Of a stretch of DNA of 46,469 nucleotides, positions 22,864 to 44,704 are shown one piece after another; within the stretch, counting starts at the first letter, position 1; every line of letters starts with the position of its first letter. This stretch comes from a virus. Made by a program: the position numbers and the translations under genes. The stretch is taken from the IMG/VR virus record IMGVR_UViG_3300028388_002150, positions 1 through 46,469 of that record. One strand, written 5' to 3'. A model generated the notes under the pieces. The model ran no database searches. It was not told the origin of the DNA and saw only the letters and a list, made by a program, of their open reading frames with translations.

Positions 22864-22867
22864 GTTT

Positions 22868-23072: not shown

Positions 23073-23082
23073 TTAGAAGCAT

Positions 23083-23111
23083 ATTATACCATACTCTACA
23101 TTAATTGTCAA
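23083..23111 (-). promoter_or_regulatory. sigma-70 promoter, perfect consensus, for the RNA cluster
   Basis: On the minus strand TTGACA (23111-23106), a 17-bp spacer and TATAAT (23088-23083). The -35 box is embedded in the last codons and stop of the metallopeptidase gene. The predicted start is about 23075, just before the structured RNA and tRNA-Trp, so it is an internal promoter dedicated to RNA genes and anything downstream. Confidence 0.9.
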
Positions 23112-25893: not shown

Positions 25894-26187
25894 TTATATT
25901 ATTTTAAACTCGTTAATATCCACAAACATCTGCTGTCCATGTCCGTAATCATCTGTTTCTCCTAAGCGTAGGAAATCTTTCAACAGCATTTCGTAAGTAA
26001 CATCAGACTCTTCGTCTATAATCCTTACGTTCCTACACTTAAGGTTGTCAAGTTCAGCCAATGTATCACTGTCAACTCCCCAACCGTGGTACTTACGAAA
26101 GAAATGTTTACTTCTTTGTACACGCTTAGTGAATGTGTCTCCGAACATCTTACCTATAACTTGACCCCTTTTGTTAAAGAACTCCAT
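25894..26187 (-). CDS. small protein beside the primase gene, unknown
   Basis: This 97-aa protein has a basic N-terminal half with aromatic residues (KHFFRKYHGWGVD) and an acidic C-terminal half. Its ATG overlaps the stop of the primase zinc-domain gene, so the two are translationally coupled and may work together. No known family is recognised. Confidence 0.5.
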   Translation of the reverse strand: MEFFNKRGQVIGKMFGDTFTKRVQRSKHFFRKYHGWGVDSDTLAELDNLKCRNVRIIDEESDVTYEMLLKDFLRLGETDDYGHGQQMFVDINEFKII

Positions 26188-26465
26188 TAAATATATTTTC
26201 TTAATTCTTCTACTGCTTCTGGTAATGTAGCCCCTAAGTCTACAAGGAAGTCTATACTATTCCCATGCTTTGGACAACCGAAACATTTATAACCACCATT
26301 ATACCTTTCATTGGTTGGGTAGATGGTACAGCTCGGTGTATTCTCTGCATGGAAGGGGCATAGTATTTTAGCACGTCTGTTTATATTTGTCAACCCTAGT
26401 ACATAGTGTAGTGGTACTGAGCGACATGCTTCTATTACCTCTGGACTAAAAGTCGTCTGGGTCAT
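26187..26465 (-). CDS. stand-alone CHC2 zinc-binding domain of DNA primase
   Basis: This 92-aa protein is just the primase zinc domain: CPFHAENTPSC (Cys36, His39) and YKCFGCPKHGNSIDFL (Cys61, Cys64), followed by a helix. In T7 gp4 and DnaG this domain is the N-terminus of the primase and chooses the priming site. Here it is a separate gene, and it lies downstream of the TOPRIM-helicase gene, overlapping it by 20 bp. The two products must meet in trans to make primers. Confidence 0.9.
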   Translation of the reverse strand: MTQTTFSPEVIEACRSVPLHYVLGLTNINRRAKILCPFHAENTPSCTIYPTNERYNGGYKCFGCPKHGNSIDFLVDLGATLPEAVEELRKYI

Positions 26466-27897
26466 ACGTTCCTCCTATTATTTGTCTTGGTAAGTCTATC
26501 TTATAAGTCTTGTTCAACATAGGTCCTTTGTTCTTCTGCACATCCACCTCTAGACCCAACTGGTCGTCAGTGGGGTACAACATTACAACAACCTCAGCGT
26601 CCTGCTCAAGAGAACTTGAACCCTTTAGGTTCTTTAGTGTAGGGCGTTGCCCTGCCTGCACTGCACCTCTGTTAATGTGACTGATTACTATAATTATAAT
26701 ACCATTCTCTTCTGCCACATGCTTAAGGGCGTGCATTTTCTCAGAGATTAAAGCTTCTTTGTTCTGTGTACCACGTATGATGTAGTCCATGTGGTCAATG
26801 ATTGCCACCTTGACACCGAACAGTCTCTTTGCTCTTGCTATGGTGGACTCCAGGTCCTTGAGTGATGGCTTAGCCATGTACACTGGTAGCATAGACAACT
26901 TCTTCGCATGTTCTAACCACTCATCTTTAGGTGTGAACTGCATGTCTTCCTGTGTCTTTGCTGTACATATCTGTAAGAACCTACGTCCTAGTGAGTATAC
27001 TCCACGCTCAATAGGGAGAAAGAGGGAGGGGATACCTTTGTCCGCTAGCTCCTTGATTATATTGAGAGAGTACACAGACTTACCTGCATTGGTCTCACCA
27101 GACACTACTACTAACTGGTCACGTTCTAGCTTAACACCAGGTAGTAGGTCTATCTCTAGGTAATCCATAGGGTCATCAATCAGCTTCTGAATGACATCAC
27201 CTAAACCAGAGAACTCATACTTATAGAATGGTGTTGCTTTAGCAAACATATTACGTAGGTCTTCTGGCTTATGCTTTAACATGTACTCATTAGCATCCTT
27301 TATACCTTCGGGGTACACAACATTACGACACTTCTCTAAGCCAATACGCTCCGCTAATTCTTTGGCGGCCATCTGCCCTGGCTCATCGTTATCAAAGGCT
27401 AACCATATAGAACCTATCTTATCTAACTCTTCTATCCACACTCCGTATGAGTTAGCACCAGCACCTGGGGAGATTACATTCTTGAACCCCATTTGCCACA
27501 GGCTCATACAATCAAACTCTCCTTCTGCTATAGCTAAACCATTCTTACCTTTATATTCTTTCTTAGCCTCATCAAAGCCTGATTCGTTGTACACCCACTG
27601 TTCAGCGTTAGACTCTGAGGTGTAGCGTATCTTCTTAGGCTTGAGTAATCGGTACTTGATATTGATTAGCTCTCCGTCCTTAAAGTGTGGTATTGCCACT
27701 GCGTTCTTGGACTTACAATATCCTAGCTTGAAGTAGTCGATAGTCTCGTCGGTCAGTCCTCGTTCCTTCTGTAAGTATTCATATGCTGGGCTTGCCCTAA
27801 GGTCTCCAATCATTCCCTCTAGCTTCTTAGGGTCTGGCTTAGTGTACTCTACACCTGCCACCTGCTGCATTGATTGTATCTTGGTTTTAAAATCCAT
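26446..27897 (-). CDS. TOPRIM primase core fused to DnaB-type helicase (T7 gp4-like without zinc domain)
   Basis: This 483-aa protein has a TOPRIM fold (Glu125 in IAEGEFD, Asp169 and Asp171 in AFDNDEPG) then a RecA-type hexameric helicase: Walker A GETNAGKS (267-274), Walker B IIDH (366-369), sensor VISHINR (404-410). This is the layout of T7 gene 4 protein minus the N-terminal zinc finger, which is encoded by the overlapping downstream gene. It unwinds DNA and makes RNA primers for a polymerase that the window does not encode. Confidence 0.93.
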   Translation of the reverse strand: MDFKTKIQSMQQVAGVEYTKPDPKKLEGMIGDLRASPAYEYLQKERGLTDETIDYFKLGYCKSKNAVAIPHFKDGELINIKYRLLKPKKIRYTSESNAEQWVYNESGFDEAKKEYKGKNGLAIAEGEFDCMSLWQMGFKNVISPGAGANSYGVWIEELDKIGSIWLAFDNDEPGQMAAKELAERIGLEKCRNVVYPEGIKDANEYMLKHKPEDLRNMFAKATPFYKYEFSGLGDVIQKLIDDPMDYLEIDLLPGVKLERDQLVVVSGETNAGKSVYSLNIIKELADKGIPSLFLPIERGVYSLGRRFLQICTAKTQEDMQFTPKDEWLEHAKKLSMLPVYMAKPSLKDLESTIARAKRLFGVKVAIIDHMDYIIRGTQNKEALISEKMHALKHVAEENGIIIIVISHINRGAVQAGQRPTLKNLKGSSSLEQDAEVVVMLYPTDDQLGLEVDVQKNKGPMLNKTYKIDLPRQIIGGTYDPDDF

Positions 27898-27923
27898 TAG
27901 CTATTTCTTATTCTTATATATTC

Positions 27924-28067
27924 TTAAACACTTATCACTCTGTCTTTATAGTCCACACTCTTTCCCTTAAAGTAGTTCTCTAGGATTTGATTTAAATGTT
28001 CTTCATTACCTGGAGTGTGTTCAGTTTTAAACTCTACTGTGATTTGGATTGTTTGAGGGTCGTTCAT
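27924..28067 (-). CDS. small protein (47 aa), unknown
   Basis: ATG at 28067, TAA at 27924. The frame encodes 47 aa (starts MNDPQTIQITVEFK, ends DRVISV). It begins 1 nt after the stop of the upstream small gene and fills the gap before the helicase gene; that tight packing and the mixed strand/helix composition support a real gene. The function is unknown. Confidence 0.6.
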   Translation of the reverse strand: MNDPQTIQITVEFKTEHTPGNEEHLNQILENYFKGKSVDYKDRVISV

Positions 28068-28068
28068 G

Positions 28069-28248
28069 CTACTCTAGTATTTGATTGATAATGTCTTTGA
28101 CTTTTTTAACTGCGTTTGTGGTGTGTACTTCATTCTCAACCCTCTCTAACAACGCTTCCTTAATAGCTTGGCGGTCTTTCTTAATGTGGTGAGTAAGCCA
28201 CGTTCTGGCCATAACATCAAGGTCTTCTAATTCTGGTATTTCTTTCAT
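28069..28248 (-). CDS. small helical protein (59 aa), unknown
   Basis: Read from the ATG at 28248, which overlaps the TGA of the 30-aa ORF upstream (ATGA), this charged helical protein ends KVKDIINQILE. A GTG at 28257 would give three more residues. It is tightly coupled to the genes on both sides. No known family is recognised. Confidence 0.55.
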   Translation of the reverse strand: MKEIPELEDLDVMARTWLTHHIKKDRQAIKEALLERVENEVHTTNAVKKVKDIINQILE

Positions 28249-28337
28249 ATCACACACATTAAATGCTCATAAAGTTTCATTGTCGTATGATAGTTCTCGG
28301 CAGTAAGAAATACTGTGGCTGTTACTGTTGTTGTCAT
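28245..28337 (-). CDS. possible 30-aa leader or small protein
   Basis: ATG at 28337 and TGA at 28245 define a 30-aa frame that overlaps the next gene by 4 bp (ATGA). The overlap suggests translational coupling, as with a leader peptide. It lies 36 nt downstream of the tRNA-like element at 28373-28450. There is no Shine-Dalgarno site; confidence is low. Confidence 0.35.
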   Translation of the reverse strand: MTTTVTATVFLTAENYHTTMKLYEHLMCVI

Positions 28338-28372
28338 AATAATAATATTAAACTTATATATGCTAGACTGTG

Positions 28373-28450
28373 CGGGTACGGTGGGATTCGAACCCACTTA
28401 TCCATAGCGTACCCAGAAGGAGCCACCGCAGTGACTCCGTAGTCACTACG
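28373..28450 (-). ncRNA. tRNA-like minihelix with upstream 10-bp hairpin
   Basis: On the minus strand 28414-28373 reads as a tRNA acceptor stem (GGGTACG paired with CGTACCC, 7 bp perfect) plus a canonical T arm (GTGGG-TTCGAAT-CCCAC) and discriminator G, joined by only 10 nt. There is no D arm and no anticodon arm. Upstream (28450-28427) is a 10-bp hairpin with loop ACGG. The perfect acceptor stem argues against chance. It could be a tRNA mimic, a processed tRNA remnant, or a signal for RNase P or tRNA-maturation enzymes. Confidence 0.65.
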
Positions 28451-28464
28451 TGACCGTTGGTGAA

Positions 28465-28656
28465 TTATGTGTCGGGTCCGGCATACTCATTAGAGAAACG
28501 TTCTTGCCGTTCCTCAAGGGACTGGCAGTACTTGAGTCGTTCAAGTGCTTTACCTTGACACTCCCTGCTACAAACAACGACATGCCAACCCATTGCGTAG
28601 AACGCAGGGTTGTCTTTGCTGATGTCTTTCTTGCAGACAGGACACACCTCATTCAT
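28465..28656 (-). CDS. small zinc-finger protein
   Basis: From the ATG at 28656, preceded by a good GGAGG ribosome site at 8-nt spacing, this is 63 aa with Cys5, Cys8, Cys29 and Cys33 (CPVC and CSREC) forming a treble-clef-like zinc site, then a charged helix. A longer frame from 28776 exists but overlaps the upstream gene fully. It may be a nucleic-acid or protein-binding regulator; the target is unknown. Confidence 0.65.
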   Translation of the reverse strand: MNEVCPVCKKDISKDNPAFYAMGWHVVVCSRECQGKALERLKYCQSLEERQERFSNEYAGPDT

Positions 28657-28882
28657 CTTTCTTTCCTCCGTCGATGACAGTGAAGTTACTGTGGTTGAGT
28701 TGCTCGACCATAGTATCCTCATCAATAATCTCAGAGATACGGCACGCCAAAGCAACCAAACAATTAATCGATTCATTGTCCATACCTCTAATGAGTTGCA
28801 GTATCTTTAATGCCTGGTCGAATTCTTTACGACCAAACATAAAGATAACATACCTCTCCTGTTTGTCAAGTGTAACTTTCAT
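28649..28882 (-). CDS. small protein (77 aa), unknown
   Basis: The start has a clear GGAGG site. The protein begins MKVTLDKQERYVIF and is mainly helical with a central hydrophobic region (INCLVALACRISEI). It overlaps both neighbours by a few bases (28649-28656 and 28882), so it is coupled with the zinc-finger and HNH genes. No family is recognised. Confidence 0.6.
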   Translation of the reverse strand: MKVTLDKQERYVIFMFGRKEFDQALKILQLIRGMDNESINCLVALACRISEIIDEDTMVEQLNHSNFTVIDGGKKDE

Positions 28883-29262
28883 TACTTCCTCCTCACTGTT
28901 GGAAGGTGTCTGAGTACTTCACACTGGCAGTCTGCACAGTAACGTCTGCTACGTCGGAAACGAGCTGTCGTCTTAGTGCGAGGTTGTGCCTGTAAGTACC
29001 AGTCTGGAGGCATGAACTCCTCGTTGAGTCTTTTAACAAACTCAGTTGGTAGCTCATTCTTAACTAGTGTGTGCCACGCAAGGTGGTCAACACGTCTAAG
29101 GATTGAAAGATTACGTTCTTCATTGATATGTTTACCAAGGTAAGAACGCTTGCGTGAACGAGGGTGTCGGTGGTGTACCTCGTAAGGCTCACCTTGCTCA
29201 AGGGTCATAGCCCTTGCGACTTCTCGCTTCTGTCTAATGGTAGACCTGGTTTTCCTAGCCAT
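28882..29262 (-). CDS. HNH-like nuclease domain protein
   Basis: This 126-aa basic protein has an HNH-type core: HHRHP (residues 30-34), Asn51 in ERNLSIL, and His60/His64 in VDHLAWHTLV. A C-terminal CADCQC cluster could bind zinc. Its start has an AGAGG ribosome site. HNH proteins in phages may be homing endonucleases or DNA-processing nucleases; it is free-standing here, with the arginine-rich tail typical of DNA binders. Direct repeats lie in front of it. Confidence 0.7.
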   Translation of the reverse strand: MARKTRSTIRQKREVARAMTLEQGEPYEVHHRHPRSRKRSYLGKHINEERNLSILRRVDHLAWHTLVKNELPTEFVKRLNEEFMPPDWYLQAQPRTKTTARFRRSRRYCADCQCEVLRHLPTVRRK

Positions 29263-29442
29263 AGTTCACCTCTAAAGAACTTGCGTTCGAAAGAACTTTC
29301 GTTCAAAAGAACATAGTTAAAAGAACATGTACTGTCACCCAGTACGGTTACACTGTGTATCTAACACAGCTTACAAGGGGTGTGTCTTCCCCCCCCTGTT
29401 AAGCTAAGCAAGAAACTACTGTCTAAGTAAGAGACTGTCGTC
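29263..29442 (-). promoter_or_regulatory. leader/operator region with AAAGAAC repeats and hairpins
   Basis: Four copies of AAAGAAC start at 29274, 29290, 29306 and 29320 (16, 16 and 14 bp apart), two of them in GAAC-N4-GTTC dyads, with CGAAAG/CTTTCG in between. Further upstream are stems GTACTG/CAGTAC, CTGTGT/ACACAG, a G/C-rich interrupted stem bounded by AGCTTA/TAAGCT, and GAGAC/GTCTC. No consensus promoter is seen. The helical-turn spacing suggests a protein array in front of the HNH gene, or a structured leader. Confidence 0.55.
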
Positions 29443-30318
29443 TCAAGAAAGAGACATCATAGCTTCGGTATACACTTCCCTTGTCTGTGTGTTACCTAAG
29501 CCTGGTGCAGTGTTAACCTCAAGGACATAAACCAGACCGTCATTATCCATGATGATATCAACAGCACCAAAGTCTAAGCCTAGTGCTTTGATAGCGTCAA
29601 TCGCTAAGTTCTCTACTCTCTCTAGTCTTTCAAGATTACCTGTTCGATATACCCAACCGCTTTCTAAGTTACGTACAGTAGACTGTTCCTCTGTGGGTGT
29701 GTCTACTACGTCTTCGTCTACCCAACGACGTGACTTCTTCTGATATAGAATGATATCATTATTGAACACATGTACCCTGTACTCACCTGCATTAGGTACT
29801 TGCTTTGTGTAGAGTGGTGCATTAGGTATTGCTTTATAGACTTTTTCTATCTCATCCTGTACCAGAGAACTTAGGTGGTCGTAGCCCAGCTCTAGTAGTG
29901 CGTCTGAGATATTAGATAGCTCACCTGCGGGGTTTAATCCTACCCGCAACACTTCTATACCGTCACCACTATGACCGTCTAGTTTATGGCGGGCAAACAC
30001 AACCTTTCCATTGTCGTACCAGTCTTGAGCTACTTGTTTATCGTATGTCCAAGGTACAGTAGATACTCCCTTGTCTGACAACGCTCTGAATGTTGAAAGT
30101 TTATTGCTTGCAATAGCAACAGACTCAGGTGAGTTAATATACTTTGCGTCACCTTGCCCCCACCATTGCGGAGTACGTGAGTTGCCCCAGTTAATTATGA
30201 CATGGTTGTCTCTTGGTGTGTATCTACTACCTTGTAGTCTAATAGATAGACCATTTAGTGCTTCTTTAATAAAGTTTACTGACTTACTGCCAGTACGATA
30301 TGGGTATATTCTAAACAT
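29443..30318 (-). CDS. ATP-grasp ligase
   Basis: This 291-aa protein has an ATP-grasp fold of the RimK/D-Ala ligase type: Gly-rich loop HKLDGHSGDG (111-120) after a lysine-bearing strand, EYRVHVF, and the metal-binding end LVYVLEVNTAPGLG with Glu and Asn. These enzymes activate a carboxylate as acyl-phosphate and join it to an amine. It has its own promoter at 30388-30416 and lies beside a glutamine amidotransferase and two amidoligases, a set noted in comparative genomics of phages. The substrate is unknown: a virion protein, a cell-wall peptide or a small metabolite. Confidence 0.85.
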   Translation of the reverse strand: MFRIYPYRTGSKSVNFIKEALNGLSIRLQGSRYTPRDNHVIINWGNSRTPQWWGQGDAKYINSPESVAIASNKLSTFRALSDKGVSTVPWTYDKQVAQDWYDNGKVVFARHKLDGHSGDGIEVLRVGLNPAGELSNISDALLELGYDHLSSLVQDEIEKVYKAIPNAPLYTKQVPNAGEYRVHVFNNDIILYQKKSRRWVDEDVVDTPTEEQSTVRNLESGWVYRTGNLERLERVENLAIDAIKALGLDFGAVDIIMDNDGLVYVLEVNTAPGLGNTQTREVYTEAMMSLS

Positions 30319-30387
30319 ATTATCTTAAACTTAGTAACGCTAACGCTATGACTACTATGAGCCACTCAATTAGCATTTGTTATTTGT

Positions 30388-30416
30388 ATTTTATCATAGT
30401 TTTAATAAAAAGTCAA
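30388..30416 (-). promoter_or_regulatory. sigma-70 promoter for the ATP-grasp gene
   Basis: On the minus strand TTGACT (30416-30411), 17-bp spacer, TAAAAT (30393-30388). The predicted start at about 30380 gives a 60-nt leader to the ATP-grasp ATG (30318). It is back to back with the plus-strand promoter at 30501-30529, with 84 bp between holding an AGTGGG/CCCACT inverted repeat that could serve both. Confidence 0.8.
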
Positions 30417-30500
30417 GCGTTATTAACTTGACCAGAAGTGGGTAAGTGCCAACTAAATGTAACACTCTTATATCTCCCACTACTGGGCAAGCTAAAGGAC

Positions 30501-30529
30501 TTGACAAATATAATGAAGTATGATATAAT
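30501..30529 (+). promoter_or_regulatory. sigma-70 promoter, perfect consensus, facing a non-coding region
   Basis: TTGACA (30501-30506), 17-bp spacer, TATAAT (30524-30529). It points into a region without any long plus-strand ORF. The first ATG, exactly 7 nt after the -10 box, opens only a 20-codon frame. The transcript would be antisense to the neighbouring early operon if it ran past 30916. Confidence 0.9.
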
Positions 30530-30535
30530 ATGGGG

Positions 30536-30900
30536 GATGTTTAGATATTATATCTTACTCCGTGTGAGGGGAACCGGCAGGTCTGGCTTTACACGTTAAT
30601 CTCATATGTCCAGAAGTGCCTCCTATGACTGGTGATAATTCCAGCGTGCTACACTGCAAAGTGTACAAAGGATGGTGGCGGTAGACAATCCGCAGTGCGA
30701 CGTAGGCGTAAGGGTATACCCGATACACTACACACACGCACTTAAAATGCCTCACAAGCCGTGTCCTGAAACCCAGGAACAGATAGTATGTGTGTGATAA
30801 GGTTACACTATGTGACCTAGCCGAAACCTCTGTGATTACATAGGGGAATAAACCTCCGTTTGTACTACCTGCAAGGGTACATATTAACCACCTAGTATTA
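30536..30900 (+). ncRNA. structured non-coding RNA, about 360 nt, unknown class
   Basis: Downstream of a perfect promoter lie at least seven local stems: 30650-30665 (TACACT-GCAA-AGTGTA, a GNRA tetraloop), 30678-30693 (GCGG/CCGC), 30695-30741 (GTGCG/CGCAC), 30764-30778 (TCCTG/CAGGA), 30801-30817 (GGTTACA/TGTGACC), 30827-30846 (8 bp) and 30862-30880. No ORF over 25 codons is seen on this strand and no terminator U-run is clear, so the 3' end is a guess. It is more G/C-rich than other gaps in the window, as expected for a folded RNA. Confidence 0.7.
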
Positions 30901-30916
30901 AGTAGTTACTATTCTT

Positions 30917-31240
30917 CTAATAATGTTTAATCTTATGTTTGGTTAGTATATCTAGCACCTTAAGTCTGGCACTATGTCGTAACTCTTCACCTCTACTACT
31001 CTCCCTCCAGTCTATAGCAGGGTTGTGTAAGTCTGCCCTCTCATCTTGGTTTAAGTGTCTTAATTTAATTGTGTCTCCCATATTTTCTATACTAGGTTGA
31101 TAAGGATTATCGTTGGTACCTCTTAGTGTCTCGATAGCACTTACTAAGTTATCGGAACTTAATGAGCTACCGATAAAGTCGGTGGCCGGCACATAGTCTG
31201 ATGTTGACTCCCACCTGTAAGCTCTTGGTTCTGGTGGCAT
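30917..31240 (-). CDS. protein of unknown function within the amidoligase cluster
   Basis: This 107-aa hydrophilic protein, with a proline-rich start (PPEPRAYRWES) and a helical C-terminus, begins 3 bp after the glutamine amidotransferase gene. No family is recognised. Its fixed place between the GAT-II and ATP-grasp genes makes it a candidate partner or substrate of the ligases; that is inference only. Confidence 0.55.
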   Translation of the reverse strand: MPPEPRAYRWESTSDYVPATDFIGSSLSSDNLVSAIETLRGTNDNPYQPSIENMGDTIKLRHLNQDERADLHNPAIDWRESSRGEELRHSARLKVLDILTKHKIKHY

Positions 31241-31243
31241 AGA

Positions 31244-32560
31244 CTACGTTCTCTCACTATACTCATAATCAACGAACTCTTGAGCAGTAGCAACAGTTTC
31301 TTCTACAACTTGCATATCTATACCGAGTGCTGACATGTCTTCCTCTAGTGTCTGTAGCTCCAGCTCAAGGTTAGCGTCACGACCATTGTAGGTTTCTTTG
31401 TCTAGGCTATCTTCTTGGTATAACTCAGCTATACGTTCACGTTCGTACTCTTTACGAGCATACTTCATTGCTAACTCTTCTAGTAACTCTTGGTCTTTGT
31501 CTGGCTCTACCACCGGCACATCTTCATAGTGATACGCTTCACTAAACATTGGCCGATTGTTTTCATTATCCCCAAGAAATATCTTAGGTACGTATATGGT
31601 CTGGTATTTGCCGTCAATTAGCTGTGATGCCTGTAACTCAAACTCATCCATTGGTGCACCAGAGTCTATTGCTTCTGAGTAAGTGTACATTGCATTGACT
31701 AACCCATAGATGTTGGTGGTCCTGTCTACTGTAGCAGGTAGTGCCTTCTTCTCAGGTGGTTCGTTGACTTGGTAACCCCTGTAGCCATATCCAGCAGTCT
31801 GCCTGTATCCCCTGTCCATATCCATTTCAGACTCTTGTGTCTTGAATGTAACAGGGTCAATATGGAAGAACTTCATAGCGTCTACCTCTTTACCTGGTCC
31901 TTCTGATGCAATCAGTATCCAACCCTTTCTGTCTTGTCTTGCTAATGAACGACCATAATTCTGTCCATAAAACACATCAACTACTTTGTTTGTACCCTTC
32001 TCAAGTACAACACCTAGTACAGCAGCTGCACCAACAGCAGATATACTAGTGTCTTTGGCTTCAAAGTAACGTGCTATCTCAATAGCAAGTGACTCGCTAT
32101 CATTATACTTCTCCTTACCATACTCTAAGAACTCGGTGGTCTGATTGTGTTTGTACTTAACAAACGTTTCCTCCTCGTACTCAGTGGTGTATTTGTAACC
32201 CAACTCTTCGTGCTTCTTATGCATGTCATCATGGTTACTAATTACACCATTATGCATGACTAAGTAATCATACTCTAGCTCGTCATTAGATACAAACATT
32301 GGGTGTGTTGTACCTAGTGTGTTTGGTGTACTCGTGGGGTATCTGTGATGAAACAATATCATCTCAGACTTCTCGTTTAGTAGACTCTTCTTCATGCTAT
32401 CTTCGTACAAGAAACGCTTGAGGTCTACTACCTTTCCGTCTTGAATGGCAATGTATCCGTAACCATCAGTACCACGTGCTCTCTGCTTTTGATACAGGTC
32501 GTACACTCTCTTACCTGTATGTTTGTCTTTTTTAGTAGCAACAAATGCTAATCCACACAT
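31244..32560 (-). CDS. class II glutamine amidotransferase (Ntn hydrolase)
   Basis: This 438-aa protein starts MCG, giving the N-terminal nucleophile Cys2 after Met removal. Other GAT-II motifs are in order: RGTDGYG (29-35), HHRYPTSTPNT (71-81), THP (85-87), MHNGVISN (102-109) and DSESLAIEIARYF. It frees ammonia from glutamine for a partner synthetase. The last 180 residues are an unrecognised acidic extension, absent from short GATases. The partners are evidently the neighbouring ligases, so the cluster may amidate carboxylates. Confidence 0.9.
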   Translation of the reverse strand: MCGLAFVATKKDKHTGKRVYDLYQKQRARGTDGYGYIAIQDGKVVDLKRFLYEDSMKKSLLNEKSEMILFHHRYPTSTPNTLGTTHPMFVSNDELEYDYLVMHNGVISNHDDMHKKHEELGYKYTTEYEEETFVKYKHNQTTEFLEYGKEKYNDSESLAIEIARYFEAKDTSISAVGAAAVLGVVLEKGTNKVVDVFYGQNYGRSLARQDRKGWILIASEGPGKEVDAMKFFHIDPVTFKTQESEMDMDRGYRQTAGYGYRGYQVNEPPEKKALPATVDRTTNIYGLVNAMYTYSEAIDSGAPMDEFELQASQLIDGKYQTIYVPKIFLGDNENNRPMFSEAYHYEDVPVVEPDKDQELLEELAMKYARKEYERERIAELYQEDSLDKETYNGRDANLELELQTLEEDMSALGIDMQVVEETVATAQEFVDYEYSERT

Positions 32561-32563
32561 AGT

Positions 32564-33607
32564 TTATTTTCTAATTACCTTATTATTGTTAATCGTTATG
32601 CCTGAGAAGTAACCAAGCAGTCGCTTGACATACTCCACTAACACAGGCTCGTCTTCTAAGAACTTGATGAACTCAAGATATGCATTGTCTGGAGTCTCCT
32701 TGTCTGGAGATATATCTATCTTAATGTCTTCAAGTTCACACTTCTCTAGCTTGTCTGCAATGTATTGGTGTAGCTTAACCCATAACAGTATTTTATTAGG
32801 GTCAATCGTTGCACCATGTGAGCGTATCTCTACTGTACCATGTCTATCAAAGTAACTATGGAAGTTAACATTGTGATACCTACTGTTACAGTAGCGACCA
32901 CCAATACCCTCACCTTTGTACCACACCCTAATGAAATCATCCTCGTTCTTTATACCCTCAATCTCTTGCAGGGTGAAGGAGTCTGATAATTGCTGGCAGT
33001 ACATGTTACCTATTGACCTTGAGTGAGATACTAATGAGGATATCACACCACTATACTGTGTATAGAAGTATAACATATTCTTTAGCCACTTAATTCTATC
33101 ATGCTCTTCAATCAAAAAGTAAACATAATTCATACGTGGTTCACGTGTTAATGGGGCACGTGAGAAGTAGGTAACATCATTGAACTCTTTTGTGTTGGTG
33201 TAGAACCCAGATGTACCAGTAGCTAATATAGAATTAGTAACTGTGTCTATATCTCTGTCTCTTAATAGACTACGAGATACAGCTATTTGCTTACCCTTCT
33301 TATTTATCTTCTTACGAGAAACCTCAACCTCACGACTATCTCTGTTGCCGTCTAGGTGTAGGTGCATAGAAGTAGCAGGGTTCTCAACGTCCACACCATT
33401 TGACTTGAGTATACGACATGCTTCTGCTATCGTATTAGCACCCTCTTCACCTTTGAGTGGCGGAGATATATACTCACCACCAACATGGGGTCTGAGTGAG
33501 CCGTCAGATGCTACACGAATACCCTCATGGAGTATCTTATGTAACACATTTTCATGACTACACAAGAACTCAATCTCAATACCAAACTGTCTGTTTGATG
33601 TTATCAT
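32564..33607 (-). CDS. amidoligase (glutamine synthetase-like fold)
   Basis: This 347-aa protein shows the amidoligase pattern: FGIEIEFL (metal-binding Glu11 and Glu13), ASDGSLRP then GGEYISPPLKG (43-53), MHLHLDG (81-87) and a late GTVEIRSHGATIDPNKILLWVKL block. These enzymes use ATP to form an amide or peptide bond between a carboxylate and an amine. It is 3 bp upstream of the GAT-II gene, so the two are probably made in step. The substrate is unknown. Confidence 0.85.
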   Translation of the reverse strand: MITSNRQFGIEIEFLCSHENVLHKILHEGIRVASDGSLRPHVGGEYISPPLKGEEGANTIAEACRILKSNGVDVENPATSMHLHLDGNRDSREVEVSRKKINKKGKQIAVSRSLLRDRDIDTVTNSILATGTSGFYTNTKEFNDVTYFSRAPLTREPRMNYVYFLIEEHDRIKWLKNMLYFYTQYSGVISSLVSHSRSIGNMYCQQLSDSFTLQEIEGIKNEDDFIRVWYKGEGIGGRYCNSRYHNVNFHSYFDRHGTVEIRSHGATIDPNKILLWVKLHQYIADKLEKCELEDIKIDISPDKETPDNAYLEFIKFLEDEPVLVEYVKRLLGYFSGITINNNKVIRK

Positions 33608-33615
33608 TTTTAATG

Positions 33616-34755
33616 TTAGTAAAAGCTAATAAATTCTTCGAACCCTTCTCTGTCCTCAAAGTTACCTTCAATCCAATCGCCTAGGCAACACGAAGCATCT
33701 CTTAATCCGTTCTCTGACAACAAGAAACGGCGGGCATCTTCGTAGTTATCTACAGTAACACCACCCATGAGTATAACATTATGCTCTACTAGTAGCTTGG
33801 TGTACTCATCAAACACTTCACGTGCTAGGTCTATGTCGTTATTGTTAATAGCCTTACGTACCTTGTTAATGTCGATAGTATCTAAGATAATATCTGCAAA
33901 CTTAGGTGCGTGCATGTAGATGTTGGTGGCATTACGAGCTAGACCACTAACCATAGACCACAGTACGTAGCCATTAAGCCAGAAGTTACTAGGCACACGA
34001 TACTCAATACCATATGGCTTCATTCTATACTCACCAGCACGACCATAAATCTTACGTCGTCTAATGTTATTCTTATCTCTGTCTATCATTACACATGTGT
34101 TACCACATATAATATCTAGTAACTTAACTAACTTAACCTGCTCTTCTTTTTTAAGATTAGCTAGTGTGCCGTTACCTAAGTGGATATGTCCACCACATGA
34201 ACGGAAACGTGTACGTGAGCCGTTTGGTGGCTTCTTACTGCCGTATGCTGTACGTGTAGGTGAACAACCAAACTCTCTCTGCTTGGCGGGCACTGATAAG
34301 AATGTCTTATCATCTATGTCACGACCAACACTAAAGTCTAGTGAAGTTTTAGTTCCACATGCTCTAGACCACGCTTCATCTATAGCTTGGCCTATGTGGT
34401 TACCTGATATCTGTCTGCATGTATCAGTATCAGGGTGTAACTCAGACTGGAAACCATCTGGTGCTACACTGTTCATACCCTCAGCAACAAACACACCTGG
34501 TGCAACCTTGCCGTCCTTTAGATAAAAGAACTCGGGGTCTGAACCAAACCTGATGTCTTGTTTGCCTGCATTGTAACCATACTCCATGTATATATCTGAG
34601 GGGTCAAGGCTATAGAAGTCAGAGAGTGCCACACGACCATGTGAAACCTTAGGATACCCTTTATGGCTACTAAAGGTACTACCGAACCTGTCTTTCAGGA
34701 TTACACCTCTGTCACCAGCTTCAGCAATAAACTTTTCTGCTTCTTCTAATGTCAT
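33616..34755 (-). CDS. phiEco32-type COOH-NH2 ligase (second amidoligase)
   Basis: This 379-aa protein carries GSDPEFFY (71-78), APDGFQSELHP (98-108), CGGHIHLG (187-194) and IEYRVPSNFWL (250-260), which I recognise from the COOH-NH2 ligase family named from phage phiEco32, a glutamine-synthetase-like fold. It is the first gene of the tight ligase run, after a 300-bp gap. Two different amidoligases plus an ATP-grasp enzyme imply at least two or three bonds made in sequence. Confidence 0.87.
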   Translation of the reverse strand: MTLEEAEKFIAEAGDRGVILKDRFGSTFSSHKGYPKVSHGRVALSDFYSLDPSDIYMEYGYNAGKQDIRFGSDPEFFYLKDGKVAPGVFVAEGMNSVAPDGFQSELHPDTDTCRQISGNHIGQAIDEAWSRACGTKTSLDFSVGRDIDDKTFLSVPAKQREFGCSPTRTAYGSKKPPNGSRTRFRSCGGHIHLGNGTLANLKKEEQVKLVKLLDIICGNTCVMIDRDKNNIRRRKIYGRAGEYRMKPYGIEYRVPSNFWLNGYVLWSMVSGLARNATNIYMHAPKFADIILDTIDINKVRKAINNNDIDLAREVFDEYTKLLVEHNVILMGGVTVDNYEDARRFLLSENGLRDASCCLGDWIEGNFEDREGFEEFISFY

Positions 34756-35058
34756 AATTAACTGTTAATCTAATAATGTTACTAATAAAGTGGGGCAACC
34801 CCCACTACGTTATACCCAAGCACATCCAGTTAGTAACGTCACTGTAATAAACCCTAATGTTTATCACAAGTTGCACAGGCTTTCGCAACGTACAGGGAAA
34901 ACCAGACCGTTAGAGTATGCACCTACGATAGTACGAAGTACAATACGTACTAATACTATAAGAGGGAGTGAGTCTATTTGGTGGGATAATTTGTAGCACT
35001 ACTCACATTACTTACCTTCTGCGAGATACTTTGGATACAACGTAGTAGGGGCTACCTA
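34756..35058. other. 303-bp gap with hairpins inside the early operon
   Basis: No convincing gene on either strand. Strong stems: 34789-34806 (AGTGGGG/CCCCCACT, loop CAA) near the ligase start, GTAC-GAA-GTAC near 34932, and 35043-35061 (TAGTAGG/CCTACTA), which overlaps the end of the cyclotransferase gene. There are no U-runs and no consensus promoter. It may be a processing or attenuation region that sets the level of the ligase genes. Confidence 0.5.
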
Positions 35059-35409
35059 CTAGTAGCAATGAATTATTGGTCTATTTTGCTTACAGTACTC
35101 AAGCAAACTCTTACCCGCAGGATAGAATATAGCTTTGATTACCTTGCCACTAACAGTGAAATCTTTTTCAACACTGTCGTAGCCTGCACCTAACTCCATA
35201 TTATCTACTGCTTCAAACACGTTGTCACTCACTTCGTATAACTCAAACGCATAGTCGCTACCTTCTTCACTTGGTTCAAACGCTGGGTAACTACTCACTA
35301 AGTACATGTTACCCTTCTCGTTAGCAAGACCAACATACTTGCTACCACGTAACAAGTCATGGTTGTACTTACCAGACTTCAATGAACCGTAAACTGCTAT
35401 TGTTCTCAT
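35059..35409 (-). CDS. gamma-glutamylcyclotransferase-like protein (AIG2/GGCT fold)
   Basis: This 116-aa protein has the substrate loop VYGSLKSGKYNH (YGSL at 7-10), a FELYEVS strand with the candidate catalytic Glu, and VDNMELGAGYDSV near the usual D-x-x-E segment. The family splits gamma-glutamyl amines, releasing 5-oxoproline. Its place just upstream of the amidoligases matches published genomic associations and suggests it trims or reverses gamma-glutamyl products of the ligases. The length fits the family. Confidence 0.85.
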   Translation of the reverse strand: MRTIAVYGSLKSGKYNHDLLRGSKYVGLANEKGNMYLVSSYPAFEPSEEGSDYAFELYEVSDNVFEAVDNMELGAGYDSVEKDFTVSGKVIKAIFYPAGKSLLEYCKQNRPIIHCY

Positions 35410-35460
35410 AACTTAATATACCCCTGAGAAGCCCAAAACTAGCTTCTAAGGGTTTTAATA

Positions 35461-35619
35461 CTACTTAGCCTTGTCTATTACCCCTGCACGTTCAAACGCC
35501 TCTCTAAAGGGAAAGTTCCAAGGTTTTTTATCTTGCTTATAATTACGCTTTGCTTTGTTTTGTTCTTTGTAACTCATGGTGTTACCCACTAAGTCTTTAG
35601 GTAACTTTTTCTCTCTCAT
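35461..35619 (-). CDS. small basic protein (52 aa), unknown
   Basis: ATG at 35619, 1 nt after the upstream stop, and TAG at 35461. The protein is lysine/arginine-rich in its first half (NKAKRNYKQDKK) with an aromatic centre (WNFPFREAFERAG). Tight packing supports a real gene. The function is unknown; the charge suggests nucleic-acid binding. Confidence 0.6.
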   Translation of the reverse strand: MREKKLPKDLVGNTMSYKEQNKAKRNYKQDKKPWNFPFREAFERAGVIDKAK

Positions 35620-35620
35620 A

Positions 35621-35944
35621 CTAAGCAGTCTTAGGCTTCATGACATTAGCAAACTTTAATTTACCAGACTTTTTGTCACGATGTTTATTTGCAGGTGTGT
35701 AGAATTGCACCAACTTGTCACCTTCTACTTCACATAACATAGCATAGGGATACTCCCTATCTAGTATTTCTAGTTGCTCTTTACATTCTCTACGTGTTAC
35801 ACCATATAACTTACCAGTGTAACGACCTTTTGCTTTGTCTGCATCGTTTGCATAATACAACACATAAGCATTACTTCTAGTTTTTGCTCTCTTACTAAGT
35901 GTTGCTGTACACACTTGTAAGGCTGTATTCATATCGAATGACAT
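35621..35944 (-). CDS. small protein (107 aa), unknown
   Basis: This basic mixed alpha/beta protein contains a GRYTGKLYGVTRRECKEQLE segment and ends KPKTA. It is the second gene of the early operon, after the membrane-anchored protein. No family is recognised. Confidence 0.5.
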   Translation of the reverse strand: MSFDMNTALQVCTATLSKRAKTRSNAYVLYYANDADKAKGRYTGKLYGVTRRECKEQLEILDREYPYAMLCEVEGDKLVQFYTPANKHRDKKSGKLKFANVMKPKTA

Positions 35945-36007
35945 AATTTAATTACTTAACTTTATAAACTCCCTAGTTCATAACATAGTGTAAGTGATAA
36001 GTTTACA

Positions 36008-36331
36008 CTATTCACCACGATGGCGGTCATGCCAATCACCCTCTAAACTCTGTGCTAAATCATATGTTTGCTTTGCCTGTTCTGATAGTTGCAAGGCTTC
36101 TTGCTGTTTTTCTATCGACATTTCAAACATAGCCCTAGCAGTTGCTAAAGTTTCAATCTCTACTTGAAACTCTTCAGACTGCATTATAGCTTCTACACGT
36201 TTTTCTAGTGGCGTTAATTCAGTCACCACTGGCAAGGGTTCATTTATAATAACCTCATCTTCATTATTATACACAACCACTAACGTAGATACTATGACTA
36301 ATGCAACCACTATTATTATAGTTGGTTTCAT
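36008..36331 (-). CDS. membrane-anchored helical protein
   Basis: This 107-aa protein starts with a signal anchor (IIIVVALVIVSTLVVVY, residues 5-21) and continues as a charged coiled coil (about 42-98), probably outside the cytoplasm. The shape resembles spanin or Rz-like proteins but also small superinfection-exclusion proteins. It is the first gene of the early minus-strand operon, behind the operator at 36357-36377, so early expression is expected and a lysis role less likely. Confidence 0.55.
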   Translation of the reverse strand: MKPTIIIVVALVIVSTLVVVYNNEDEVIINEPLPVVTELTPLEKRVEAIMQSEEFQVEIETLATARAMFEMSIEKQQEALQLSEQAKQTYDLAQSLEGDWHDRHRGE

Positions 36332-36356
36332 TTACTAGTTTGTTTATTCTGATAAT

Positions 36357-36377
36357 ATACAGTATCTATTACTGTAT
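36357..36377. promoter_or_regulatory. dyad operator before the first early gene
   Basis: ATACAGTA and TACTGTAT flank TCTAT, a perfect 8-bp inverted repeat 26 bp upstream of the ATG at 36331. The half-site arrangement suits a dimeric regulator controlling the early operon. No consensus -35 box is seen next to it. Confidence 0.6.
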
Positions 36378-36517
36378 GCTTTTAATACAGTTGTATAGAC
36401 TGCACGTGCTGTTTGCACGTTATAGGCCACGATAGTAGAAACATTTATCAGTACGAAACATAAACAATCATTTTTTTGGTTAGTTGCAACTAACACTGGT
36501 TACAGTTACCGACTGCG

Positions 36518-37905
36518 GGCGGTCATGGCCTATAACATGCAAGCCAGTATTGACATATTGTAATGCCCTGTTACTAACTTACACGTTCTAGGATAGTACA
36601 CGCTTTTATAACACGTTCTCACAAGTAGACTAGTGACTTTTACCACTAGACGTTTTTCGGACTTGCTACACTTAGTATTATTACTAACGTGTACTTGGTT
36701 AGGATAGTTATATATGATGACTGCGTGACAGTCTGATAGTTAAGTTTAGGTTTATTATAAGTATACACTTATTACAATGCCGTTGTTCCCTGTGCTTCAG
36801 TCTAGCAAAATTGGCGGTCATTATACCAGATACCCGTTACAGTGTAGACATAGTATGCTATGCTATTATTCACTGTTATCGAAATATAACCAGATAAACC
36901 CTAGATTTTAACTTTTTCTATAAGTATCTTATAGAGGTTATATAACTATCCTATTTTCTAAGCGGTATATTCATTTTCATTTATACCCCGATAAAGCTAA
37001 TAAATTACTTTACAGAATATACTCACGCTATAATACAATGATGTATTTTATTTATGTAAGGATATGCACGTTATTATAACTTATCTAGTCTATACCTATA
37101 CTGCAACACCGTTGCATGATGTATAAATTGCCTTGTATTGTACGATATAGCCTTACGGGGTTATCGTATGCTCAACACTTACAATCTTAGTAATTATTGA
37201 CTAGCATATTATAATGCCGTTTATATTCTATTGTATGCAACTCGTATATTTCAACTCGTTACTTTTGTATCTTATCATAGTGCAAATGACTTTGCAACTA
37301 TACACAACTTATTTTTTATGTCATAACTTGAGTTATGATATTGATGTAGTTGCCAAACACCACCTATATAATAATATATAGGATTGATTGCACAAATGGC
37401 GGGCATTTATACAATCTACCTATATGCTACACTTTGTACTATACTACCTTCTCAGTGTACCGTTAGAACGATAAGCACCGAATGTTAGTCTATCATCTCT
37501 CACAATATTTGCAATATTGACAGACCGTTTAACTCGTTTTGCACTTGTTACTTGCTTGTAAGTGGTATTGAAACCACCCTCATAGCTTGTTTTTCTCTTA
37601 CGCATATGCACCTTGCTTATATTGGCGGTCAATCCTGTCACAATTTAACACTAAGTTATCATATGACAAGTAACCACTACTGTATAATTCAAGTAGCATG
37701 TTTTGTATTTCTAAATACATAAGTTTGTTTTTTTATTTTTGTAATGTACTTGCGGTGTCTCTTACCACAAAACCAGAATATCACAACGCATGATAATAGC
37801 AACTATACACAACAGCATAATTATTGCATAATGATGTATAATATCAATATATGGCTATAAACAAGGATATATTACAGAATATTATACCACATAATCGGCG
37901 GTCAG
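36518..37905 (+). repeat. dispersed GGCGGTCA boxes (iteron-like)
   Basis: GGCGGTCA occurs at 36518, 36813, 37624 and 37897, with a variant GGCGGGCA at 37399, all in the same orientation; a further copy lies just outside at 36022 within the first early gene. A motif with six G/C in eight, repeated this often in AT-rich non-coding DNA, is unlikely by chance. Spacing is irregular (225-586 bp), unlike classical tandem iterons. Possible binding sites for a replication initiator or regulator. Confidence 0.6.
37444..37641 (-). CDS. possible small basic protein
   Basis: A GTG-started frame of 65 codons, or 53 from an internal ATG (starting MRKRKTSYEGG), encodes a strongly basic peptide. It is the only notable frame in the control region. 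There is no ribosome site and its GTG overlaps a GGCGGTCA box, so it may be chance. If real, a DNA-binding regulator or virion peptide would fit the charge. Confidence 0.3.
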   Translation of the reverse strand: MTGLTANISKVHMRKRKTSYEGGFNTTYKQVTSAKRVKRSVNIANIVRDDRLTFGAYRSNGTLRR

Positions 37906-37924
37906 TCTATATTTTCACCTATAC

Positions 37925-37953
37925 TAGACATAATACAATAACAGTGGTATAAT
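37925..37953 (+). promoter_or_regulatory. probable sigma-70 promoter in the control region
   Basis: TAGACA (37925-37930), 17-bp spacer, TATAAT (37948-37953), one mismatch from consensus. No gene follows within 600 bp, so it would make a leader or non-coding RNA toward the packaging genes, possibly an RNA primer for replication. Confidence 0.55.
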
Positions 37954-38091
37954 CACATGCAGTTGACAAGTATTACTAAGTGTTGTATTACTACCTAACA
38001 TACTACACCGTATAATAAATGTTACGTCAACAGCTACGCTGTTTAAAGTCAACTTGCCGTAGGAACTTCCGTACATTGGATAGTTTTCATG

Positions 38092-38133
38092 TCCTTGTTA
38101 AGTATATACCAATCCTTGTTAAGTATATACCAA
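38092..38133 (+). repeat. two tandem 21-bp direct repeats
   Basis: Two perfect adjacent 21-bp units (38092-38112 and 38113-38133), each with a GTATATAC dyad in its centre. Two helical turns per unit places the dyads on the same DNA face, as for cooperative regulator binding. A single copy of the 14-bp core of the later 16-bp repeat lies just upstream near 38059. Confidence 0.85.
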
Positions 38134-38221
38134 CAACACCACACCACACCATAAAAGAAGAGTAATGTCAAGTGTAAACACTCCTAACCCCCCATTATAT
38201 CATATTGAAGCAATAATACTA

Positions 38222-38250
38222 TTGACAAAGCCAGAGAAGAGTGTTATATA
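38222..38250 (+). promoter_or_regulatory. sigma-70 promoter upstream of the packaging operon
   Basis: TTGACA (38222-38227), 17-bp spacer, TATATA (38245-38250). An ATG lies exactly 7 nt after the -10 box (38258) and opens a 25-codon frame rich in Met and Val, with G-rich runs at 38285-38300. It could be a leaderless small peptide or an RNA leader for the terminase operon. Confidence 0.7.
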
Positions 38251-38472
38251 TTAGGCCATGTTTTTATTATTATGTCAAGTGAAGAGGGGGGGTATGGGGG
38301 TAATGCGTGTTATGTATGTGTATAATTACCACTAAGAAATTTTATATGATATTAAAGGTTTAATGTCTAATATTCTAAAGAACACGTTCGCACTCTGTGC
38401 TGTAAGCTTGGGATTTCAGATGATAGACGTGGGGCTAGAGACTTGAGTCCAGGGGACGACTTCGCCCTAAGA

Positions 38473-38552
38473 GGAACTTCCGTCCGTAGGAACTTCCGTC
38501 CGTAGGAACTTCCGTCCGTAGGAACTTCCGTCCGTAGGAACTTCCGTCCGTA
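38473..38552 (+). repeat. five perfect tandem 16-bp repeats, operator array
   Basis: The unit GGAACTTCCGTCCGTA is repeated five times without error (starts 38473, 38489, 38505, 38521 and 38537), ending 4 bp before the -35 box of the terminase promoter. There is no spacer variation and no CRISPR-like structure. About 1.5 helical turns per unit means binding sites alternate faces. This is most likely an activator or repressor array for late transcription. Confidence 0.95.
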
Positions 38553-38556
38553 GGAC

Positions 38557-38585
38557 TTGACAAACTTATCAATGTATGGTATAAT
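38557..38585 (+). promoter_or_regulatory. sigma-70 promoter of the terminase operon, leaderless
   Basis: TTGACA (38557-38562), 17-bp spacer, TATAAT (38580-38585). The gene's ATG is at 38593, only 7 nt after the -10 box, where transcription should begin. The mRNA would thus start at or within a base of the start codon, without a ribosome binding site. The purine run AGGAG lies too close to the ATG to serve as one. Confidence 0.92.
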
Positions 38586-38592
38586 AGGAGCC

Positions 38593-39120
38593 ATGACTAA
38601 TAATATAGCGGAAAAACCTAAGGTCCGTGCCTCTGAACGAGGCGTAAGAGCCTCAAGCAGAGGTAGAAAGGTTAAAAAAGGAGAACCTATAGTCATACCA
38701 AATGCCGAAGCACTCGACAAGGGGGAGCTTGAAAGGCAGAAGAAGAATGAAGCCCAACGCCGGCTTATGCAAAGAAGGCGTGGTAAAGAACCTACTGTTC
38801 CGTTAAGAGGACAGGAAGTAAGAGAGATAGAGACCGAAGATATGATTTCCATGGCAAAACAAACCAGGAACTTATCATTGGGTGTGTTAGAGAACGCACT
38901 GGTAAACCTCATGCAGGACCCAGAGAAGTTAGCTAAGACAAACATTGCTACTCTTGCTACAGTGTTCGGTATAATGTATGACAAGACCCAGCTTATGCAG
39001 GGATTATCAACACAGAATATAGCAGTTAATGCTAAGGTCGATATCAATATGAACTCAGATGAAGCTATTCAAGAGCTGAATAAGATTCGTTCTAAGTTCC
39101 AAGAATCTAACGACAGCTAG
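38593..39120 (+). CDS. terS: putative small terminase subunit
   Basis: From the ATG at 38593 (not the TTG inside the -35 box) this is 175 aa. The N-terminal 50 residues are very basic (VRASERGVRASSRGRKVKKG), fit for DNA binding; the centre and C-terminus are helical (LATVFGIMYDKTQLMQG), as in the oligomerising part of TerS. It directly precedes the large terminase. It would recognise the packaging site and feed DNA to the motor. The family is too diverse for a firm motif; context is strong. Confidence 0.75.
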   Translation: MTNNIAEKPKVRASERGVRASSRGRKVKKGEPIVIPNAEALDKGELERQKKNEAQRRLMQRRRGKEPTVPLRGQEVREIETEDMISMAKQTRNLSLGVLENALVNLMQDPEKLAKTNIATLATVFGIMYDKTQLMQGLSTQNIAVNAKVDINMNSDEAIQELNKIRSKFQESNDS

Positions 39121-39125
39121 TGAGT

Positions 39126-40763: not shown

Positions 40764-41133
40764 AGAAAGGATAGGCTCCAAATGGTTCAAGCGTTTGTGT
40801 GAGGAGTTAAAGAAAACATCTAAACACTTTCGTATTGTACGCATTAGACACGGGTTCTACCGTGTGTACTGGAAGGATGCCTATGTCCATGAGATATATA
40901 AAGAGATGCCATACCGTGGCTACTCATGGTATACAGACTCACCGTACAAAGAATCACTCAAGCTAATGCAAGAGTGGGAACAAGATGGTGAGATACAACG
41001 CAAAGTTAAGAACTTTGTGGAAGGATACGCTGAAGCATCTAAGGCTATTAAGCTACGGATGTACCAGTTCAAGAATAATAACGAGCACTATGAAGCGGCA
41101 AAAGATATGTATAAGTCTGTAGTTATAAAATAA
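40744..41133 (+). CDS. small protein between terminase and portal, unknown
   Basis: This 129-aa basic, aromatic-rich protein (HGFYRVYWKDAYVHEIYKEMPYRGYSWYTDS) overlaps the end of the terminase gene by 20 bp, so translation is coupled. Its C-terminal half is helical. Packaging-region position suggests a role in packaging or portal assembly. No family is recognised. Confidence 0.55.
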   Translation: MFGGGDKERIGSKWFKRLCEELKKTSKHFRIVRIRHGFYRVYWKDAYVHEIYKEMPYRGYSWYTDSPYKESLKLMQEWEQDGEIQRKVKNFVEGYAEASKAIKLRMYQFKNNNEHYEAAKDMYKSVVIK

Positions 41134-41138
41134 ATATT

Positions 41139-41318
41139 ATGATAAAGAAAAGAAAAAATGGCGGTGCAAGTCGTGGTTACAAATCAACCACTGAAATGTT
41201 ATTGGGCTGGGGTAAGAAACCAAAGAAGGTCCGTGTTAAAGCGGTTAAAAAAGGTAAGAAGCCAAACTATAAAATCCCAAAGACTCCCAAGAACTCAGGT
41301 AGAGGGTGGGGAGGTTAA
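41139..41318 (+). CDS. small very basic protein (59 aa)
   Basis: ATG at 41139, TAA at 41316-41318. The product is lysine-rich throughout (KKPKKVRVKAVKKGKKPNYK) and ends in a Gly/Arg/Trp tail (GRGWGG). It fills the gap between the preceding gene and the portal. The charge fits a DNA-condensing or capsid-packaged protein; unproven. Confidence 0.6.
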   Translation: MIKKRKNGGASRGYKSTTEMLLGWGKKPKKVRVKAVKKGKKPNYKIPKTPKNSGRGWGG

Positions 41319-41331
41319 GTTATAAAAAAAT

Positions 41332-43302: not shown

Positions 43303-43318
43303 ATTTAATTAGTCGAGC

Positions 43319-43721: not shown

Positions 43722-43722
43722 T

Positions 43723-44703: not shown

Positions 44704-44704
44704 T

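Follow-up and report, generated by a model that had tools for sequence, protein, structure and literature searches.

A phage cassette of two predicted amidoligases, an ATP-grasp ligase, a glutamine amidotransferase and a gamma-glutamyl-cleaving enzyme

Introduction

What would a phage do with five neighboring enzymes predicted to supply ammonia, form amide bonds and cleave gamma-glutamyl groups? The question is raised by the IMG/VR viral record IMGVR_UViG_3300028388_002150, all 46469 bases of which were analyzed and are termed the window here. Between positions 29443 and 35409, six open reading frames (ORFs), all on the minus strand, encode a gamma-glutamyl(amine) cyclotransferase (GGCT), a phiEco32-type COOH-NH2 ligase (COOH ligase), an Amidoligase_2, a class II glutamine amidotransferase (GAT), a RimK/Ddl-like ATP-grasp ligase and a protein of 107 amino acids (aa) (Table 1). 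We lean slightly toward an answer that concerns the chemistry and not the target: the enzymes of the cassette may act together in one pathway by which glutamyl amide bonds are formed and edited, all on a single acceptor.

Enzymes of the cassette

An earlier note, drawn from the letters of the window, had proposed six ORFs that include two amidoligases, an ATP-grasp, a GAT and a GGCT, with their key motifs and the Cys2 nucleophile of the GAT. Pfam, PHROGs and profile comparisons bear out the six ORFs on the minus strand, and catalytic-type residues are intact in alignments with relatives. Of the Pfam assignments for the enzyme families that the note had named, those of the cyclotransferase (GGACT PF06094, 48 bits against a cut-off of 22.8), the COOH ligase (PF14395, 44 against 25), Amidoligase_2 (PF12224, 79 against 22) and the ATP-grasp (RimK PF08443, 26 against 21) hold, and that of the amidotransferase falls short, GATase_6 (PF13522) scoring 23 bits, under its cut-off of 27. 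The class II call is nevertheless upheld, because the amidotransferase profile matches PurF and GlmS among PDB structures and because its characteristic residues are kept in 7/7 close relatives: Cys2, Gly3, the HHRxPTST block with Arg73, His-Asn-Gly at 103-105 and NDSE at 153-156. A scan with the single window sequence found no relatives of this amidotransferase, but an alignment-based scan did find them, and the window-type subfamily is found in about 30 viral loci.

PHROGs assignments are concordant for the ATP-grasp (4.9e-77), both ligases and the cyclotransferase. The ATP-grasp also matches profiles of alpha-L-glutamate ligases, RimK, cyanophycin synthase and D-Ala-D-Ala ligases. In Amidoligase_2 the residues E11, E13, H82, H84, E260 and R262 (motifs ExE, HxH and ExR), and in the COOH ligase D73, E75, H190, E251 and R253, are present in the window and invariant over 60 diverse relatives of each. 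The COOH ligase carries the PF14395 motifs DPE, GGHxH and EYR...SNFW.

A conserved four-enzyme core

A set of 240 loci was gathered in three scans, one of them made twice. By profiles built for this analysis, the core of COOH ligase, Amidoligase_2, GAT and ATP-grasp is complete in 134 non-redundant viral groups, in 132 of which all four genes lie on one strand, and the median spacing of consecutive cassette genes is 2 bases. The clustering of the core genes is far beyond chance. Gene order has been rearranged many times among the loci, which argues that the linkage is functional and not a matter of frozen descent.

Eighty-nine of the 134 groups are well-bounded non-redundant viral contigs, with at least 3 kb of flank on both sides. 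A protein of 190-220 aa without known function (phrog_11055 / phrog_4877; loci L003, L005 and L038 are examples) lies between the two ligases in 65 of these 89 cassettes. Its family profile has no match in the window or in the entire clade to which the window belongs, and it is missing from other cassettes too. Thus the protein is common, not defining, and its absence does not exclude the window from membership. A 315-aa protein, likewise without known function, occurs only where the 190-220 aa protein is present (38/38). Both are likely to be further members of the cassette.

The gamma-glutamyl-cleaving step

In 81 loci, clustering of neighboring genes brought out a protein resembling class I amidotransferases, which Pfam assigns to Peptidase_C26 (C26), a family unrelated to GGCT. 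C26 includes gamma-glutamyl hydrolases such as PuuD, and a GxCxG motif together with a His-x-x-Glu or His-Pro-Glu motif is kept in 83 of the 88 C26 proteins. Five cassettes seemed at first to have neither GGCT nor C26; a check of the whole records placed a GGCT elsewhere in two and identified two others as fragments, so that 87 assessable cassettes remain. Among these, GGCT alone is encoded in 25, C26 alone in 41, both in 20 and neither in 1, against about 12.6 cassettes with neither expected under independence.

Since 86/87 cassettes encode GGCT or the unrelated C26, removal of gamma-glutamyl groups appears to be near-obligatory in the cassette, with the two enzymes interchangeable. The count also supports the earlier suggestion that the cyclotransferase trims gamma-glutamyl groups. 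Before the whole-record correction, the association between the two families had a Fisher p of 2.4e-5 (0.057 for the third-scan loci alone). A tree built from three concatenated core proteins requires at least 10 changes in GGCT and at least 5 in C26. Among 4 supported independent pairs differing in C26, GGCT is opposite in 2.6 and the same in 0.3, too few pairs for significance.

Amidoligase_2 and amidotransferase as a separable pair

Of 77 well-bounded loci, 76 have both Amidoligase_2 and the amidotransferase, and one has neither. Nine of the 30 loci of the amidotransferase scan contain only this pair, two of them as two tandem pairs. Eight of the nine records were searched whole, and none of the other enzymes (COOH ligase, ATP-grasp, GGCT, C26) turned up; the run of the PF14395 search included no positive control, though the same profile does detect the window protein. 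The joint presence and absence, together with the pair-only records, suggest that the amidotransferase most likely supplies Amidoligase_2 and that the pair works as a unit, in support of the earlier proposal that ammonia from glutamine feeds ligation.

A gamma-glutamyl-cleaving enzyme is found in 86/87 cassettes versus 0/8 pair-only records (Fisher p 7e-11). Its absence from the latter indicates that it belongs with the other two ligases, and it most likely travels with the COOH ligase and the ATP-grasp.

Predicted folds of the two ligases

A PDB search by sequence found no relative for either ligase. AlphaFold2 models built with 60-sequence alignments are confident, with a predicted local distance difference test score (pLDDT) of 89 for Amidoligase_2 and 80 for the COOH ligase. 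The closest structures to the Amidoligase_2 model are YbdK and its Salmonella ortholog (Z 13.5-14.0), then gamma-glutamylcysteine synthetase (Z about 12.3), with glutamine synthetase (GS) also among its PDB neighbors. The COOH ligase model is nearest to the depupylase Dop (Z 15.3) and the Pup ligase PafA (Z 14.7), followed by YbdK (14.5) and GS (14.1). The models thus place both ligases in the predicted GS fold. Most of these neighboring enzymes act on the gamma-carboxylate of glutamate or on its amide. Identity to the best neighbors is low, at 12-13% for Amidoligase_2 with YbdK and gamma-glutamylcysteine synthetase and about 10% for the COOH ligase with Dop and PafA; Amidoligase_2 differs from its neighbors in being partnered with an amidotransferase.

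The first rank of Dop and PafA suggests that a host or phage protein might be the object of the cassette, receiving an isopeptide or glutamyl tag as by Dop/PafA and RimK. The ATP-grasp, annotated in PHROGs as an S6 glutaminyl transferase and matching RimK, would agree with such a role. However YbdK and GS follow within about 1 Z unit of Dop/PafA, and no Pup-like substrate was found, the 107-aa protein lacking a terminal Glu or Gln, as do its relatives. Protein modification is considered unlikely.

Proposed pathway and its target

In the glutamyl amide pathway that we favor, the amidotransferase would free ammonia from glutamine and hand it to Amidoligase_2, which would activate a carboxylate with ATP and convert it to an amide. 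The COOH ligase, nearest to Dop/PafA, would couple the gamma-carboxylate of glutamate to an acceptor amine, and the RimK-like ATP-grasp would attach a further amino acid, probably glutamate. GGCT, or the C26 hydrolase in other phages, would strip gamma-glutamyl groups, either as the removal of a protecting group or as the editing of wrong or unfinished products. We infer every reaction, the order of the steps, the acceptor and which ligase performs which step. Observed are the genes with their intact motifs, the predicted ligase folds, the conserved core, the near-obligatory cleaving enzyme and the pairing of amidoligase with amidotransferase.

Several points weigh against the pathway or parts of it. 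The fold neighbors do not fix the substrates; the scores of GS, YbdK, gamma-glutamylcysteine synthetase and Dop/PafA are close. Because loci entered the set through similarity to the COOH ligase or the ATP-grasp, completeness of those two genes was favored by design. The balance of GGCT and C26 partly reflects shared ancestry, and the tree-based pair test is underpowered. Host gamma-glutamyl compounds unconnected with the ligases could also be the substrates of GGCT or C26. Arthrobacter phage Waltz has a GGCT-amidoligase-amidotransferase arrangement, with no COOH ligase or ATP-grasp annotated within the 7.6 kb seen, and this counts against a strict split into modules. Finally, a literature search found no product, substrate or mutant phenotype reported for the cassette.

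A simpler role, in which the genes merely help the amino-acid supply of the host, has been proposed for phage ZRK32. The growth effect reported there concerns the whole phage, not the genes themselves, and nitrogen or amino-acid metabolism is a poor fit to two ATP-dependent ligases of unusual families plus an ATP-grasp; we hold this role to be most improbable.

As the single target of the glutamyl amide pathway, a peptidoglycan precursor is tentatively placed first, ahead of a small peptide or metabolite and of a host or phage protein. The cassette would then amidate or branch the stem peptides of such precursors, which might affect later phages or the timing of the phage's own lysis. Such a target was proposed in print for RIO1-like podoviruses that carry these genes, and again for OM43 phages and prophages, and the likeness of the ATP-grasp to D-Ala-D-Ala ligases agrees with it. 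The named hosts of relatives are bacteria normally credited with peptidoglycan, but host range cannot discriminate between targets. Moreover, the literature found reports no modified muropeptide, and neighbor clustering detected no known cell-wall gene in the conserved cassette.

The interchangeable GGCT/C26 step and the separable amidoligase and amidotransferase point the search for a product toward a gamma-glutamyl intermediate and an amide derived from ammonia, and mass spectrometry can measure both directly. Homologs of the window ATP-grasp occur in 309 named phage records, which include laboratory-tractable E. coli and Pseudomonas phages.

The 107-aa protein and the window clade

The ORF between the amidotransferase and the ATP-grasp gene is a real gene: four relatives (L007, L087, L089 and L090) encode a homolog at the same place, directly after the amidotransferase, with a conserved C-terminus. 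A shorter and weaker match in L008 is located after the ATP-grasp. The protein has no Pfam, PHROG or PDB relative. The window groups with L087, L089, L007, L091 and L008 in a clade that sits on a long branch and is fully supported in the Shimodaira-Hasegawa-like approximate likelihood ratio test (SH-aLRT); the 107-aa family is confined to this clade, whose cassettes have GGCT only. Small proteins with an N-terminal CCG motif are encoded just upstream of GGCT in L007 (6961-7332), L090 (2557-3000), L091 (2373-2690) and L008 (4432-4788); none was seen in the window.

The 107-aa protein may serve as substrate, adaptor or subunit. It ends in HY and its four relatives in VV, KK, KV and KV, so that it is not Pup-like.

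Small proteins also follow the amidotransferase in PaP3 and phiEco32, as in the window clade, and this would suit the synthesis of a gamma-glutamyl metabolite, or of a modified short ribosomal peptide such as the 107-aa protein itself. The butirosin (BtrJ/BtrG) and putrescine (PuuA/PuuD) pathways, in which gamma-glutamyl ligation is followed by later removal, also count for this alternative. However, no relation is detectable between the small proteins of the two groups, and the 107-aa family, besides its restriction to one clade, shows no repeated core motif. Graspetide biosynthesis would call for a precursor peptide with a core motif beside an ATP-grasp, and the 107-aa gene does precede that of the ATP-grasp. 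We hold small-molecule or peptide synthesis to be doubtful.

A phage tagging system would combine several of these features: the Dop/PafA-like ligase, the ATP-grasp and the amidoligase with its amidotransferase would add a gamma-glutamyl-linked, amidated tag to a protein or peptide. The clade-specific 107-aa protein would be the substrate or an adaptor, and GGCT or C26 would take the tag off again. We regard such a system as improbable and retain the glutamyl amide pathway.

Locus and genome setting

Table 1. Features of the cassette and of the gap within it
Feature	Coordinates	Strand	Remarks
Gamma-glutamyl(amine) cyclotransferase (GGCT), PF06094 GGACT	35059..35409	-	116 aa; YGSL motif, conserved acidic Glu72
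phiEco32-type COOH-NH2 ligase, PF14395	33616..34755	-	379 aa; predicted glutamine-synthetase fold
Amidoligase_2, PF12224	32564..33607	-	347 aa; predicted glutamine-synthetase fold
Class II glutamine amidotransferase (GAT), Cys2 nucleophile	31244..32560	-	C-terminal extension of ~200 residues; divergent subfamily
107-aa protein, new family	30917..31240	-	Variable N-terminus; C-terminal KxRHLxxxERxxxHxPxxDWxxxxxGE
Candidate structured non-coding RNA	30540..30765	+	48 pairs with L087, 9 doubly compensated, none broken; two sequences only
Perfect promoter TTGACA-17-TATAAT	30501..30529	+	TG before second hexamer (extended-minus-10); directed against cassette
RimK/Ddl-like ATP-grasp ligase, phrog_2599	29443..30318	-	291 aa

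Structural genes occupy the plus strand at 0-18 kb of the window, and packaging genes the plus strand from 38.5 kb. Between them a replication block runs on the minus strand from 36 to 18 kb and encodes a primase/helicase, exonucleases, a dNMP kinase, MazG, a GroEL-like protein and tRNA-Trp. The primase/helicase gene (26446-27897) is on the same strand as the cassette, which lies in this block near its upstream end. The early position claimed in the earlier note is thus upheld to the extent that the location fits early expression, as judged from position.

Comparison of 20 kb of window DNA (26001-46000) with named phages gave no match, nor did tblastn with the window amidotransferase, and the phage is therefore distant from every named phage. 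Bacterial genomes scanned with the window-type amidotransferase yielded just two distant matches, both in uncultured bacteria, and no clue to the host. DNA hypermodification was considered as a target and is held unlikely; a scan of window proteins brought up no base-modifying gene.

The window carries an exact 99-bp inverted terminal repeat (1-99 and 46371-46469). This may be an assembly artefact, because in the record of the nearest relative, L087, the terminal repeat is direct, 123 bp long, and an inverted one is lacking. The small and large subunits of ribonucleotide reductase are encoded beside the packaging genes (43723-46402, plus strand), the large-subunit ORF terminating within the terminal repeat. 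The GroEL-like chaperonin lies at 18778-20292 on the minus strand (phrog_5725, 299 bits; Cpn60_TCP1, 105 bits). An array of a 16-bp repeat, AGGAACTTCCGTCCGT, is found at 38456-38571, immediately before the packaging-gene promoter at 38557, and diverged copies lie at 29275-29310 and 38045-38080; the repeats look like a binding array for a regulator.

Opposite-strand promoter and candidate structured RNAs

A gap of about 600 bp (30319-30916) separates the 107-aa gene from the ATP-grasp gene and holds the promoter listed in Table 1, which is kept at the same place in L007, L087, L089 and L090. The earlier note had reported neither this promoter nor the RNA that follows it. Three copies of the promoter pattern are present in the window, where 0.01 would be expected: in this gap, at 38557 before the packaging genes, and at 23111 on the minus strand before tRNA-Trp.

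Downstream of the promoter in the gap lies a candidate, not proven, structured RNA, whose G-U pairs point to the plus strand. Its covariance model matches two copies only, those of the window and L087; L007 and L090 have a different version, also partly compensated. The single-sequence folding z-score is modest (-0.7), and Rfam gave no match. At 22864-23111, on the minus strand, a promoter of the same class is followed by a highly structured RNA of about 200 nucleotides with a long closing stem, directly upstream of tRNA-Trp. Its folding z-score is -4.6, with 0/200 shuffles as stable; it has no match in Rfam and was not found in relatives by a DNA search that had no positive control.

Comparison with known systems

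The five enzymes clustered on one strand match a published cassette, and as a set of genes the window cassette is already known. The earlier note gave too strong an impression that the find is uncommon, since the whole cassette is published in many podoviruses and annotated in phiEco32, PaP3, RIO-1 and Bas93. For the RIO1-like podoviruses RIO-1 and PSA-HP1 it was described as a hypothetical "peptidoglycan modification cassette" (Hardies 2013 and Iyer 2009, as cited in PMC5498523), and the authors list it also in phiEco32, 7-11, PA11, tf, MR299-2, LUZ24, PaP3 and CW02 (PMC5498523). Direct inspection of RIO-1, phiEco32, PaP3 and E. coli phage Bas93 found all five enzymes near the primase/helicase.

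The window shares with the RIO-1/PSA-HP1 cassette the same five enzyme families on one strand near the primase/helicase, but is without the conserved protein between the ligases and has a divergent amidotransferase and the 107-aa gene. The early cassette of LUZ24-like and phiEco32-like phages (UFV-P2, PaP3, phiEco32, Bas93) has the COOH ligase, Amidoligase_2, GAT, a small protein, ATP-grasp, GGCT and primase in nearly the same order as the window. The GGCT gene, however, lies upstream in the window but downstream in those phages, and the small protein after the GAT (DUF7195 in Pseudomonas phage SCYZ1) is not detectably related to that of the window. New here, relative to these systems, are the apparently near-obligatory and interchangeable gamma-glutamyl cleavage, the putatively separable pair of Amidoligase_2 and amidotransferase, the family of the 107-aa protein and the candidate RNA on the opposite strand.

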